Assembly: GCA_002404055.1 (NCBI GenBank)
Contig: DHIZ01000372.1
Span: 1 to 35,780, forward strand
Direction: 5' to 3'
From: Chloroflexi bacterium UBA4733
Lineage (GTDB): Bacteria > Chloroflexota > UBA4733
Length of the DNA: 35,780 nt
Shown here piece by piece: positions 817 through 4,310 of the stretch (positions are counted from its first letter, which is position 1; every line of letters starts with the position of its first letter). The position numbers were made by a program, and so were the translations under genes. The notes under the pieces were generated by a model. That model ran no database searches, was not told the origin of the DNA, and saw only the letters and a list, made by a program, of their open reading frames with translations.

Positions 817-1095
817 TTACTCGTCACCGGGCCGGGGCGGCTCCGTGTTGCCCCAGGCATCGGCGGCCGCGTTGCTCGCCAGCGCCGCTGCCAGTGCATC
901 GATGTCCAGGCCGAACCGCTCAGCGATCAGTCGCACGTCGCCAGCCCCGCGCGGGTACCGGCACAGCCGGAGCTTGACAGCGGTCGGTTCGTCCACACTC
1001 AACGCTGCCACCAGCGCGCTGGTACTGACGTGGCCGGCGATAAAGTCGGGATCCCCGGCCAAGCGGTTGGCCAGGCGGGCTAGCTGCTCGCTCAT
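817..1095 (-). CDS. Small helical protein, 92 aa, mobile-element operon
   Basis: Starts at ATG 1095, which overlaps the TGA of the upstream gene (ATGA), so the two are probably translationally coupled. The 92-residue product has the pattern of a small all-helical protein: LARLANRLAGDPDFIAGHVS, then a middle part with KLRLCRYPRGAGD, then LIAERFGLDIDALAAALASN. From memory, similar short proteins (a leucine-rich helix, an L-x-L-C-R-x-P motif and an IAxRFGxDxxAL helix) are found in mobile and accessory regions of Chloroflexota and Actinobacteria with no assigned function. It could be a small DNA-binding regulator, but no clear helix-turn-helix is visible. Confidence 0.65.
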   Translation of the reverse strand: MSEQLARLANRLAGDPDFIAGHVSTSALVAALSVDEPTAVKLRLCRYPRGAGDVRLIAERFGLDIDALAAALASNAAADAWGNTEPPRPGDE

Positions 1096-1385
1096 TGCAG
1101 TTCGTCCGTGATTGCCTTTGCCCCCCCGTGAACCTCCAGCGCAGCCTGCGCGCCCGCCGCGGCGGCGATGCGGAGCCGGGCGGTTTCACTCACTGGCCCC
1201 GCCCGCTCTGCATCACCAATCGCCTTGCAGGCTGCCGCGACAGCACTGCGCACCGTCAGATGGTGTGCTATCGCTGCAAGGTCGCGCCCAATCGCATCAC
1301 ACCTGGCTAACGCGCTGGCCGCGCCGTCCCACGCCGGGACCATCGCCCCGTCCGCCATCGCCACCGTAGACTGGACCTGCTGCAT
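1092..1385 (-). CDS. Hypothetical protein, 97 aa, first gene of leftward mobile-element operon
   Basis: Opens with ATG at 1385, with a weak AAGGGC ribosome site, about 45 bp downstream of the -10 box of a good promoter. The 97-residue product is alanine-rich and predicted helical throughout (for example CDAIGRDLAAIAHHLTVRSA), with no signal peptide or membrane segment. I recognise no family. Its stop overlaps the start of the 92-aa gene by four bases. As the first gene after the promoter it should be expressed together with the rest of the operon that leads into the putative integrase. Confidence 0.6.
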   Translation of the reverse strand: MQQVQSTVAMADGAMVPAWDGAASALARCDAIGRDLAAIAHHLTVRSAVAAACKAIGDAERAGPVSETARLRIAAAAGAQAALEVHGGAKAITDELQ

Positions 1386-1431
1386 TGCCCTTGCCTCTCG
1401 CTATCCGGCCCCGCATCGGAACCACAGGGAT

Positions 1432-1460
1432 AGCCTACGTCTATGGTATTCCGTTGTCAA
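1432..1460 (-). promoter_or_regulatory. Sigma70-type promoter for leftward operon
   Basis: On the minus strand TTGACA (1455-1460) is followed after 17 bp by TAGGCT (1432-1437). It points into the 97-aa gene that starts at 1385. The -35 box is perfect and the -10 keeps the TAnnnT pattern. Confidence 0.65.
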
Positions 1461-1466
1461 GACGTA

Positions 1467-1495
1467 TTGCTTACAAAACATCCTGCGGGTAGAAT
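1467..1495 (+). promoter_or_regulatory. Promoter for excisionase-like/resolvase/recombinase operon, back to back with the leftward promoter
   Basis: TTGCTT (1467-1472), a 17-bp spacer, then TAGAAT (1490-1495) faces the excisionase-like gene. A second GCGGTAGAAT copy follows at 1501-1510, forming a short direct repeat that could be a second -10 or a binding site. The -35 boxes of the two opposing promoters are only 6 bp apart, so one bound protein could control both directions. Confidence 0.55.
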
Positions 1496-1529
1496 GACAT
1501 CGCGGTAGAATCCGAGCATGGGAGACATC

Positions 1530-1835
1530 ATGAGCGTCACTGAAGCGGCGGCAGTGCTTAAGATCACGCCGGAGATGGTGCGCCGCTACATCGCCTTGGG
1601 CCGACTACCAGCGCAACACGTCGGTAAGCGGGTATGGGTGCTCCAGCGCACGGACGTAGAAGTGTTCGCCGCTGATCCACCCCGCCGTGGCTGGCCCAAG
1701 GGAAAGCCGCGTCGGCAGCCCGCAGTGGCGATGCCCGACAGACAGGGAGCAGACCGAGACGCAGGCAACAGCAATGCCGGCGAACACCTGGCCCTGCCCG
1801 ATGCCGAACGGCTGGCCGAGGAGCAGCAGCAATGA
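1530..1835 (+). CDS. Excisionase-family (HTH_17/MerR-like) DNA-binding protein
   Basis: The first 45 residues form the winged-helix DNA-binding unit seen in excisionases and the HTH_17 family: SVTEAAAVLKITPEMVRRYI, then GRLPAQHVGKRVWVLQRTDV as wing and third helix. The tail is basic (RRGWPKGKPRRQP), then acidic. I chose ATG 1530 over ATG 1518 because a GGGAGA site sits at 1520-1525 and the family usually begins right at SVTEAA. The product is 101 aa. Its stop overlaps the start of the next gene (ATGA at 1832-1835), so the HTH protein and the resolvase domain are coupled. A recombination-directionality factor for the neighbouring recombinase, or a promoter switch for the divergent operons, are the likely roles. 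Both are inferred from position. Confidence 0.75.
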   Translation: MSVTEAAAVLKITPEMVRRYIALGRLPAQHVGKRVWVLQRTDVEVFAADPPRRGWPKGKPRRQPAVAMPDRQGADRDAGNSNAGEHLALPDAERLAEEQQQ

Positions 1836-2221
1836 CCGACCACGGCAACCGTACCGCCATCTATGCACGGGCAGCCACGCAAGGGCAGGATGCCCCGAAC
1901 GCCGCGCTGGACCGCCAGATCGCCACGTGCATGGACTATTGCACAGCACACGGGCACGCCGTTGTCGATCGCTACCTCGACGCCGGCTACTCCGGCAATA
2001 CCGACCGGCGGCCGGCGCTGCAACGGCTCCTGCAGGACGCTGAGGCAAGGGTGATAGACCCGGTGATTGTCGCCACACTGGACCGCCTAGCCCGGTCGCC
2101 GCGTGTGGTGGATGCCATCGTGCAGCGGTTGGAGCAGTACGGCATCAGCCTGGTCGCCGTGGATGAGGCAATCAACACCGCCACGGCGGAAGGCCGGGCA
2201 ATGGTCCGTGTGCTAGCATAG
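1832..2221 (+). CDS. Stand-alone serine-recombinase N-terminal domain lacking the catalytic serine
   Basis: The 129-residue product is a resolvase/invertase catalytic domain with nothing after it. The usual start Y-x-R-V-S-(S/T) reads YARAATQGQ here: the nucleophilic serine position is Ala15, encoded by GCC at 1874-1876. Other landmarks remain: the YSGNTDRRPALQRLL loop, IVATLDRLARSPRVV with the conserved Arg, and a final ISLVAVDEAINTATAEGRAM strand and helix. The protein ends just where helix E would begin, so no recombinase or zinc-ribbon domain follows. It is coupled to the excisionase-like gene and lies 96 bp upstream of an intact large serine recombinase whose serine is present. It may be a decayed remnant, or a partner that binds the active recombinase without cutting. 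Ser-to-Ala loss without frameshift or stop favours the second idea slightly. Confidence 0.8.
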   Translation: MTDHGNRTAIYARAATQGQDAPNAALDRQIATCMDYCTAHGHAVVDRYLDAGYSGNTDRRPALQRLLQDAEARVIDPVIVATLDRLARSPRVVDAIVQRLEQYGISLVAVDEAINTATAEGRAMVRVLA

Positions 2222-2231
2222 GCACACAGGA

Positions 2232-2297
2232 GGCCGACGCCGCAAACGTCGGCCCAGTGCGGCGCTGTAGTAGCGCCTGGACGCCCGGCAACGGGCG
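2232..2297 (+). promoter_or_regulatory. Three consecutive hairpins in the leader of the large serine recombinase
   Basis: Three perfect stems lie within 66 bases: GGCCGACG/CGTCGGCC (2232-2239 with 2247-2254, 7-nt loop), GGCGCT/AGCGCC (2261-2266 with 2272-2277, 5-nt loop) and CGCCCG/CGGGCG (2282-2287 with 2292-2297) closed by a GCAA (GNRA) tetraloop. They fill the gap between the dead resolvase domain and the ribosome site of the recombinase. No T-run follows, so they do not look like ordinary terminators. They could form a structured RNA leader or a protein-binding DNA site. Confidence 0.55.
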
Positions 2298-2317
2298 GAA
2301 CTTTGGAGGAACACCCT

Positions 2318-3916
2318 ATGCCATCCGTCCAAGTCAAAGTATCGCCTATCAACGCCACCGCGTCTAGCGGTCAACCGCTCGCCGCCGTCTACGTCCGCGT
2401 CTCAAGTGAAGCCCAGGAAGACGGTTCCTCCCTGGGGACACAGGAGGCCGCGTGCCGACAGTATGCCGAGCAGCACGGCTACGCCGTCGCCCAGGTGTAC
2501 CGGGAAGTCTTCACGGGAGTCGAACTGTGGGAGCGACCGCGCCTGACGGAGATGCGGGAGGCGATACGGGATCATCGCGTCAACACCATCATCTGCTATG
2601 CCATCGACCGCCTGGCCCGTGATCCGGTTCACCTTGGCCTATTGATTACCGAGGCCGACCATGCCGACGTAGCGGTAGAGTTTGTGACCGAGCCGCTAGA
2701 CAACACGCCGGAAGGGCAACTGATCCGGTTTGTTCGCGGCTATGCGGCCAAGGTGGAACACGAGAAAATCAAGGAGCGCACGGCGCGGGGACGCAAGGCC
2801 CGTGTCTATTCCGGCAGGCCGCTTCCCGGCCCGCGCGTGCTCTATGGGTATCAATGGGCCGACGCCGAGCACACGCACTATGAACCCAACCCGACGACGG
2901 AACGGGTAGTGCAGCGCATCTTCCGTGAGGCAGTGTCGGGCGGAACACTCCGGCACATCGCCATGGGTCTGACAGCAGCCGGCGTCCCCCCACCGGTGAG
3001 CGGCAAACGCACGGCCTGGGGGCCGGACGCGATCCGCTGGATTTTGCATCACCCGTCCTATGCCGGACGGGCAACGGGCTGGCGCGACGGCAAGGACTGC
3101 ACGACCGGGACGGCGCTTCCCCCCGGCACTATCCCTGCACTTGTGGACGAAGCCACTTTCGACGCGGTACAGGAGCGTCTGCGACAGAATCAACTGCGAT
3201 CCGCTCGGAACAACCCCAACCCCGAGGCAACCCTCTTACGCGGCGGCTACGTCCGCTGTGGCTACTGTGGCCGGACGATGATCGTGAAACCGCCGGACGG
3301 CAACCACGGTCCGCGCTATCGCTGCATCAATGCCGATCGCCTCGATAAGGGCTGTCGGAGCCACACCATTTCATCAGCCATCCTTGATCCGGCCGTGTGG
3401 AACAAGGTCGAAGCGATCCTGACACAGCCGGAGATCGTGGCGCGAGAGTTAGCGCGGAGTCAATCCAACGACCCCAGCGCCGCCGACCTGGAGGCCGTAG
3501 ACCGGGACATCACCAAGGTCGAACGACAACAGCGCGTGCTTGTTGCCACCATGGACGGGTTAGACGAGGACGTTATCCCGCTGGTTCAGGAGCGCCTGGC
3601 GACGCATGCGGAGACGCGCCGCCGGTTACACGCGGAACGGGAAACCATCCTCTCCCGTCGCGCGTCCTGGGAGTCCGCCCAGCAGCAGCTGGCAGACCTG
3701 GAGGGATGGTGCAGGACACTTGCTGAGACCCTCTCCGAACTGACCTACCAACAGAAGCGGCTCGCCCTCGACGCGCTCGGCGTGCGCGTCACCCTTTGGC
3801 ATGCGGACCATACGCCCCGCTACCAGATAGAAGCGAGCATCCCGCTAGAGGTATCTGAGCCTGATATTGTGCGTAGAAGTCAACCTTGTTCCAGGTGGTC
3901 CCGCTGGTTTCACTGA
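2318..3916 (+). CDS. Large serine recombinase (site-specific integrase)
   Basis: The 532-aa protein has the full large serine integrase layout. A resolvase catalytic domain spans about residues 22-165, with YVRVSSEAQ carrying Ser29 and IICYAIDRLARDP carrying the active-site arginine. A Recombinase domain follows at about 190-300 (YGYQWADAE, TAAGVPPPVSGKRTAWGPDA, ILHHPSYAGRA). A zinc ribbon spans about 313-350 (RCGYCGRTM ... RYRCINA ... GCRSH), then a coiled coil (about 380-470). ATG 2318 is chosen because GGAGGA at 2305-2310 sits 7 bp ahead; the in-frame TTG at 2303 overlaps that site. The enzyme should integrate and excise the element by attP x attB recombination. The last 20 or so residues (DIVRRSQPCSRWSRWFH) run across the element end into a disrupted FecR gene, so the C-terminus is probably partly host-encoded. 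Confidence 0.93.
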   Translation: MPSVQVKVSPINATASSGQPLAAVYVRVSSEAQEDGSSLGTQEAACRQYAEQHGYAVAQVYREVFTGVELWERPRLTEMREAIRDHRVNTIICYAIDRLARDPVHLGLLITEADHADVAVEFVTEPLDNTPEGQLIRFVRGYAAKVEHEKIKERTARGRKARVYSGRPLPGPRVLYGYQWADAEHTHYEPNPTTERVVQRIFREAVSGGTLRHIAMGLTAAGVPPPVSGKRTAWGPDAIRWILHHPSYAGRATGWRDGKDCTTGTALPPGTIPALVDEATFDAVQERLRQNQLRSARNNPNPEATLLRGGYVRCGYCGRTMIVKPPDGNHGPRYRCINADRLDKGCRSHTISSAILDPAVWNKVEAILTQPEIVARELARSQSNDPSAADLEAVDRDITKVERQQRVLVATMDGLDEDVIPLVQERLATHAETRRRLHAERETILSRRASWESAQQQLADLEGWCRTLAETLSELTYQQKRLALDALGVRVTLWHADHTPRYQIEASIPLEVSEPDIVRRSQPCSRWSRWFH

Positions 3917-4310
3917 TCGCCAGTAGCAAGCTGGACGAGCCGGCCTGACCGGGGGACCCCTGCAGTTGGGTGATGGTGATCTCGGTATTGGGCTCGATCT
4001 CGGTGGTGCTCCCCTCAAAATAGGTAAGGACGGCGTGACCGTCGGGGCCGCTGCGCACGCGGTCACCTACCTTCAACGGGGTCGACAGGGTGCCTACCGG
4101 CACGGTGACGTAGCCGGTACCACCTGCTGTCCAGACTTCCACCTTGCCGGCCAGCACGGTGAGCGTGGTGTCGCGTACCAGCGCGTAGGCCTGCCGGGGC
4201 CGCAACGTGATGTAGCCGGCTACTGCGACGACCAGTAACACCACCACAAGCTGGGCGATGCGGCGGGAGCGCGCGGTTTGGGGGAGCAGGGCCAGGAAAC
4301 GGGCCATCAT
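3789..4310 (-). pseudogene. FecR-type membrane protein, 3' part lost at the element junction
   Basis: Starts ATGATG at 4310, overlapping the stop of the HD-GYP gene. After a basic N-terminus comes one membrane helix (IAQLVVVLLVVAVAGYITL, about residues 18-36), then a FecR-like extracytoplasmic domain. The cues are VLAGKVEVWTAGGTGYVTVP, PLKVGDRVRSGPDGHAVLTY and FEGSTTEIEPNTEITITQLQ, ending at GTTWNKVD. Family members normally continue with an RYEVETP/VRGT segment. Here the sequence departs and stops after about 35 foreign residues, within the recombinase gene on the other strand. FecR-domain proteins of this type are cell-surface or signalling proteins of mostly unknown ligand. The gene is probably non-functional while the element is inserted; the missing half should lie beyond the left end of the element. 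Confidence 0.8.
3845..3885. other. Inferred right attachment-site junction of the mobile element
   Basis: The leftward FecR-type reading frame matches its family down to TTWNKVD (near 3880-3900). It then turns into unrelated residues and stops at 3789, inside the recombinase gene. The recombinase's own family-like sequence ends near IEASIPLEV (about 3850). The two boundaries bracket a junction of about 40 bp. The exact core dinucleotide cannot be set without the empty site or the left end, which is outside the window. Confidence 0.5.

Follow-up and report, generated by a model that had tools for sequence, protein, structure and literature searches.

A 35,780-nucleotide stretch of DNA from Chloroflexi bacterium UBA4733 (contig DHIZ01000372.1, hereafter the window) encodes a truncated, catalytically dead serine-recombinase core of 129 aa (positions 1832–2221, + strand) directly upstream of an intact large serine recombinase (LSR). 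Our tentative reading, to which we give a little less than an even chance, is that this gene is a maintained pseudo-recombinase, a partner of the adjacent LSR that would act by protein contact. The same arrangement, a lone core with a residue other than Ser at the nucleophile position, immediately upstream of a co-oriented intact LSR, was found in the window and at three other loci (L094, L129, and L165).

The 129-aa protein matches PF00239 (8.7e-28) and aligns with the N-terminal domain of the LSR encoded 96 bp downstream, with 25% identity over 114 residues (E 6e-10). Its codon GCC at 1874–1876 (+ strand) places Ala15 opposite the catalytic serine, Ser29 of the LSR (codon 2402–2404), and the Y-x-R and DRLAR motifs are retained in a clean frame. 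Our analysis thereby confirmed the alignment with the downstream LSR, the Ala in place of Ser29, the retained motifs, and the clean frame, all of which had been described in an earlier note on the same DNA. As the identity is only 25%, the core was ruled out as a recent duplicate of the adjacent LSR. A sequencing error at Ala15 was also rejected because homologues have Ala at the same position, and its presence in all three close homologues found goes beyond chance. The G+C content at the three codon positions of the small ORF (0.72/0.48/0.78) is similar to that of the LSR (0.68/0.50/0.73).

The AlphaFold2 model of the core (pLDDT 90, pTM 0.85) gave the catalytic domain of TP901-1 integrase as its top Foldseek match (3bvp; TMq 0.87, 37% identity), and both Pfam and the predicted structure assign the protein the Resolvase N-terminal domain fold of the serine recombinase superfamily. 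According to excerpts of two studies, serine recombinases use helix E for contacts in the dimer and in rotation (PMC4058570, PMC3783163). The PF00239 match of the core covers only positions 2–118 of 145, and the model ends with a helix of residues 119–128 (2186–2221, + strand, up to the last residue and the stop codon). By model and Pfam match, the C-terminus lies about ten residues into helix E; the remainder of the helix is absent, as are both LSR DNA-binding domains. This predicted stop within helix E, without a DNA-binding domain, goes beyond what the earlier note had described. The core thus has neither the Ser nucleophile nor the complete helix E, for the dimer and rotation interface, of an active serine recombinase, and the LSR domains PF07508 and PF13408 are missing from it and present in its neighbour. 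Against the IS607 transposase model (NCBIfam NF033518) it scored 51.3 bits, below the cut-off of 110, and among PHROG families it matched phrog_95 at 1.3e-33 versus phrog_6620 at 5.7e-9.

On its 5' side, the core gene is preceded by an ORF for a 105-aa excisionase-like HTH_17 protein (1518–1835, + strand; PF12728, 6.3e-9), a candidate directionality factor whose stop overlaps the start of the small gene by 4 nt (ATGA). This protein scored 28.4 bits against the TIGR01764 excisionase domain, slightly below the cut-off of 28.8, and matched the excisionase family phrog_1840 (8.4e-6) and, weakly, Gp37 (4j2n, E 0.0076). On the 3' side, the LSR (532 aa; 2318–3916, + strand; PF00239, PF07508, and PF13408) starts with the ATG at 2318; the first named relative among the matches listed is Sphaerobacter thermophilus (57%). 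The 5' region of the LSR message (2216–2330, + strand) is predicted to form three hairpins (−52.1 kcal/mol, z −2.8), enclosed by pairing of GCAUAGG in the stop region of the small gene with CCUAUGC at the LSR start. For this one sequence, equal stability was reached in 3 of 200 shuffles.

When 5.8 billion proteins were searched with the window core as the single query, one homologue was found. The family profile search matched 387 proteins, and two more close homologues were found among the best 120 of these. By BLASTP, the three homologues P0005, P0126, and P0127 are 62%, 60%, and 53% identical to the window core (about 50–62% overall). All four family members have Ala at the nucleophile position, which answers in the negative the question, raised in the earlier note, of whether homologues of the small gene usually keep Ser (0 of 3). 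The alignment of the four has 37 invariant columns, including Y11, Q19, S54, and the four arginines R13, R60, R85, and R88. The Asp of D-R-x-x-R is lost in three of the four and retained in the window member. Three members end soon after the motif TATAEGRA and P0126 is shorter; P0126, with its early end, and P0127, from a 679-bp contig, may each be cut. In a tree of 106 rows (quick method), the four members form one clade (SH-aLRT 100). In an earlier tree of 104 rows, built by the same kind of method, they were mutually nearest and stood in no starred set, the value of 78 referring only to the split of the family from four other Ala rows.

We retrieved 242 recombinase-domain proteins, 240 of which were readable at the nucleophile position (two gapped rows were set aside). 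Ser is present in 233 and Ala in 7, namely the four family members and the short proteins P0146, P0162, and P0228. No close relative of the window core was detected in 400 phylum-wide and 158 class-wide genomes, where scoring covered the top candidates of each genome, or in 3 genomes of the nearest order, as judged by one gene. A peptide-pattern scan of genome contigs and viral contigs likewise gave no close homologue. When plasmids and phages were searched by tblastn with the small protein, all matches among the best 20 listed of each were below 60% identity.

The search for other dead cores covered the 400 genomes of the phylum, the 158 of one class, the 3 of the nearest order, 61 of one order, and 47 of another class. 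The first phylum search matched chiefly ordinary LSRs, and 15 regions with short frames from the phylum and class searches led to L094 and L090. The 400 phylum genomes were also searched with an LSR as a query, and the loci of LSRs and short frames were read. L094 was selected by the match of its core to the query profile, and L129 and L165 through their LSRs. The 241 loci, mostly from Chloroflexota, contain 197 unique recombinase-domain frames, 171 long (at least 300 aa) and 26 short. Among the long frames, Ser is found in 164 of the 165 readable ones and Asn in the other (6 unreadable). The short internal frames, counted after exclusion of two Ser frames cut by the locus end, comprise 17 with Ser, 5 with Ala, 1 with Pro, and 1 unreadable (Ser in 17/23 readable). 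Seven of the 197 frames (6 long, 1 short) were gapped at the nucleophile position and were set aside.

Of the unique LSR frames, 162 were 400 aa or longer, and 148 of these had at least 400 bp upstream. An Ala-type lone core lies directly 5' on the same strand in 3 of the 148 (L094, L129, and L165) and is absent upstream of the other 145, so the check proposed in the earlier note, for Ala-type lone cores beside LSRs in other genomes, gave a positive result at three loci. At L212 (1/148), a Ser-type small recombinase is encoded directly upstream of the LSR. The remaining short frames on the 5' side belong to split LSRs (L033 and L175) or correspond to the 64-aa fragment in L129. Split LSR frames also occur in L216.

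The L094 core (150 aa) has Ala and an Asp-to-Asn change, keeps helix E (PF00239 match to position 142/145), and overlaps its 540-aa LSR by 4 nt; an RNase H-like gene lies upstream of the core. In L129, a 148-aa core has Ala and changes at the Arg45 and Asp67 positions (names which, like Ser10, we take to follow gamma-delta resolvase numbering) and is separated by 57 nt from a 690-aa LSR. This locus contains the additional 64-aa fragment, which is of the Ser type and looks like part of a set of layered remnants. The L165 core (145 aa) has Ala, keeps Asp-Arg, and overlaps its 524-aa LSR by 8 nt. Its nearest sequence among the 16 others compared is its own LSR (41%), and neither of the two tested ORFs upstream of it has an HTH match. 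The PF00239 matches of the L129 and L165 cores extend only to position 104/145. All four cores read as DNA (window, L094, L129, and L165) are open frames, in which LSR codon usage fits best in frame +1.

In the 106-row tree, the Ala cores form no single group and the 12 dead rows need 9 changes; the starred branches by themselves require just 2 changes, and equally strong clustering arose in 5 of 500 label shuffles. On these sequences, separate origins of the paired Ala cores are likely. Scanning viral contigs with the L094 and L165 cores gave no match. Among 27 distinct related LSR loci, a small HTH-like ORF was seen by eye upstream in 12 and a dead core in none, and a Pfam run on three of these ORFs (L001, L002, and L042) confirmed the HTH. 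LSR relatives in one order (61 genomes) had no dead core upstream.

The small genes could instead be remnants, that is, old or tandemly duplicated recombinase genes lying beside a working LSR at various stages of decay and without function. The truncation points differ between cores, a second fragment is present in L129, the L165 core and its own LSR share 41% identity, and LSR frames are split at L033, L175, and L216. The differing truncation points and the extra L129 fragment, together with the rarity of the pairing (3/148), count against a maintained partner. However, drift should yield mixed residues at the nucleophile position, and the non-Ser residue is Ala in 5 of 6 short frames. Ala and the core motifs are also common to the window family at 50–62% identity, in database proteins that are open frames by construction, while each of the four cores read as DNA has an open frame whose codon pattern resembles that of coding sequence, and the position 5' of an LSR recurs, twice with a stop/start overlap. 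As three homologues share Ala, Ala prevails, the frames are open, and the place 5' of an LSR repeats, plain decay appears less likely, and we consider the remnant account unlikely. With Ala in 4/4 family members and lone Ala cores 5' of LSRs at three other loci, the dead domain, for which the earlier note had named a plain remnant as the alternative, was probably kept as a gene. Alternatively, translation of the small ORF might open the structured leader of the LSR, or couple LSR translation to its own, the product then mattering less. The predicted RNA fold joining the LSR start to the stop of the small gene (z −2.8, 3/200 shuffles) and the stop/start overlaps in L094 and L165 are consistent with such a device. 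Nevertheless, this fold comes from one sequence, L129 has a gap of 57 nt, a simple leader would have no need of a recombinase fold, and conservation across the four family members is seen at the protein level. We regard this possibility as improbable.

We give a similarly low probability to a role of the core in directionality, in which the core and the HTH_17 protein would jointly make the LSR excise instead of integrate. The 4-nt overlap between the two genes fits this proposal, as do the small factors that excerpts of one report list for two LSRs, Rv1584c/Xis of phiRv1 (73 aa) and ORF7 of TP901-1 (64 aa) (PMC4111918). Since these factors are small, the HTH_17 gene would be a likelier, more conventional candidate for a directionality factor than the dead core. 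Against a joint role, the gene upstream of the L094 core is RNase H-like, the two tested ORFs upstream of the L165 core are without an HTH match, and related LSR loci have an HTH gene and no dead core. Moreover, we know of no directionality factor with a recombinase fold. The earlier note had also suggested that the small protein enters the LSR tetramer as a non-cutting subunit, which could poison or re-time the LSR. Retention of helix E in the L094 core and of the active-site arginines in the window family would suit this role. Yet the window core has only about ten residues of helix E and no DNA-binding domain, and in the L129 and L165 cores the PF00239 match stops at 104/145. The role of an ordinary tetramer subunit fits poorly because the window core lacks the greater part of helix E and every DNA-binding domain, and we think it very improbable.

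In the reading that we prefer, a maintained pseudo-recombinase acting on the adjacent LSR by contact, a TP901-1-like core would have lost its nucleophile and its DNA-binding half and persisted as a protein encoded with an active LSR. Selection would have maintained the core, and the protein would bind the LSR physically. As it is without its own helix E, the core may retain a free groove of the kind that normally packs against this helix, so it could dock on helix E or on the core of an LSR subunit and keep this subunit from an active dimer or tetramer. Integrase activity would be damped until the HTH protein of the element, or some other signal, shifted the balance; inhibition is our first guess for the sign of the effect. 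Docking on a helix does not cover every case because the L094 core keeps helix E, with which it could dimerise. It is doubtful, in our opinion, whether this can be extended to Chloroflexota mobile elements having repeatedly made dead stand-alone cores that bind helix E or the core of LSRs in trans and set the timing or direction of recombination. If this were true, integrases would be controlled by a protein switch derived from the enzyme itself, which would set such trans-acting dead cores apart from known directionality factors. A dead core acting as a regulator would show an enzyme giving rise to its own controller. Only in a few systems is it understood in detail how LSRs are held in one direction and how excision is triggered, and LSRs are in wide use as tools for work on genomes. 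A dead core that occurs naturally in genetic linkage with its LSR could provide a regulator ready for use. The recurrence in four gene pairs makes the partner idea directly testable.

Among solved structures, the best sequence match for the family profile is the catalytic domain of TP901-1 integrase (PDB 3bvp, 98 bits), which has Ser at the nucleophile position whereas the window core has Ala. Full-length TP901-1 integrase contains helix E and DNA-binding domains, none of which is complete in the window core. Judged from titles and abstract openings, the open-licence literature holds no description that we recognised of an LSR with a dead serine-recombinase core as its partner. The nearest printed idea is poxvirus F16, a serine recombinase predicted to be without catalytic activity, which like the window core is thought to keep the serine-recombinase fold without catalysis; F16 differs in being targeted to the nucleolus, and the excerpt mentions no recombinase partner (PMC11980589). 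The window core weakly matches Pfam Pox_F16 (E 0.33). Serine-integrase triplets of streptococcal ICEs resemble the window in having adjacent serine-recombinase genes in one orientation, but all 42 serine integrases counted in that report are described as having the conserved Ser and the Recombinase domain (PMC4701971). Xis of phiRv1 (Rv1584c), as excerpted, resembles the HTH_17 gene of the window, being small, excisionase-like, and of comparable size (PMC4111918); the dead core itself is unlike this type of factor. In TnpA of the IS607 family, a DNA-binding domain precedes the serine-recombinase core, according to an excerpt (PMC4058570), and in the window HTH_17 and core follow each other as two coupled genes, although the sequence of the window core is closer to LSRs than to IS607-family TnpA.

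Several other recombinase frames were noted. At L090, L082, and L078, lone cores of the Ala or Pro type were seen, and no LSR was found immediately downstream of them. The Ala-type core of L082 (1415–1909) is on a 14.85-kb IMG/VR contig, whose examined part (6.8 kb) contains no further recombinase frame. The L078 core (2160–2654) has Pro at the nucleophile position and is missing helix E; it follows the C-terminal part of dprA, just 3' of an LSR that is seemingly inserted in dprA. At L160, a 714-aa recombinase frame (1028–3169, − strand) has Asn in place of the nucleophile and bears an HTH_17 domain at its C-terminus; it is possibly a dead full-length LSR. The L129 LSR (1459–3531) also has HTH_17 at its C-terminus, so that an integrase is fused to an excisionase-like domain. 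The 'recombinase small subunit' of phage AcaML1 was rejected as a recombinase core because it has no Pfam match at E 0.1.

As for the surroundings in the window, four small minus-strand ORFs (1–1385) diverge from the recombinase operon; they have no Pfam or PADLOC match at E ≤ 0.01 and are probably cargo of the element. At the other end, the LSR overlaps a reverse-strand ORF at 3789–3916. This minus-strand host gene (3789–4310) is apparently interrupted by the end of the element near the LSR stop, which places a probable attachment junction, with approximate boundaries, at 3850–3890. For the host gene, no homologue was found in 61 genomes, and 3 genomes gave one weak homologue (29%, G003) whose match leaves the junction uncovered. 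A palindrome scan for the attachment site scored 11/22 at 3907 and at best 13 between 3700 and 4100 (window-wide mean 6.0, sd 2.1, maximum 16).
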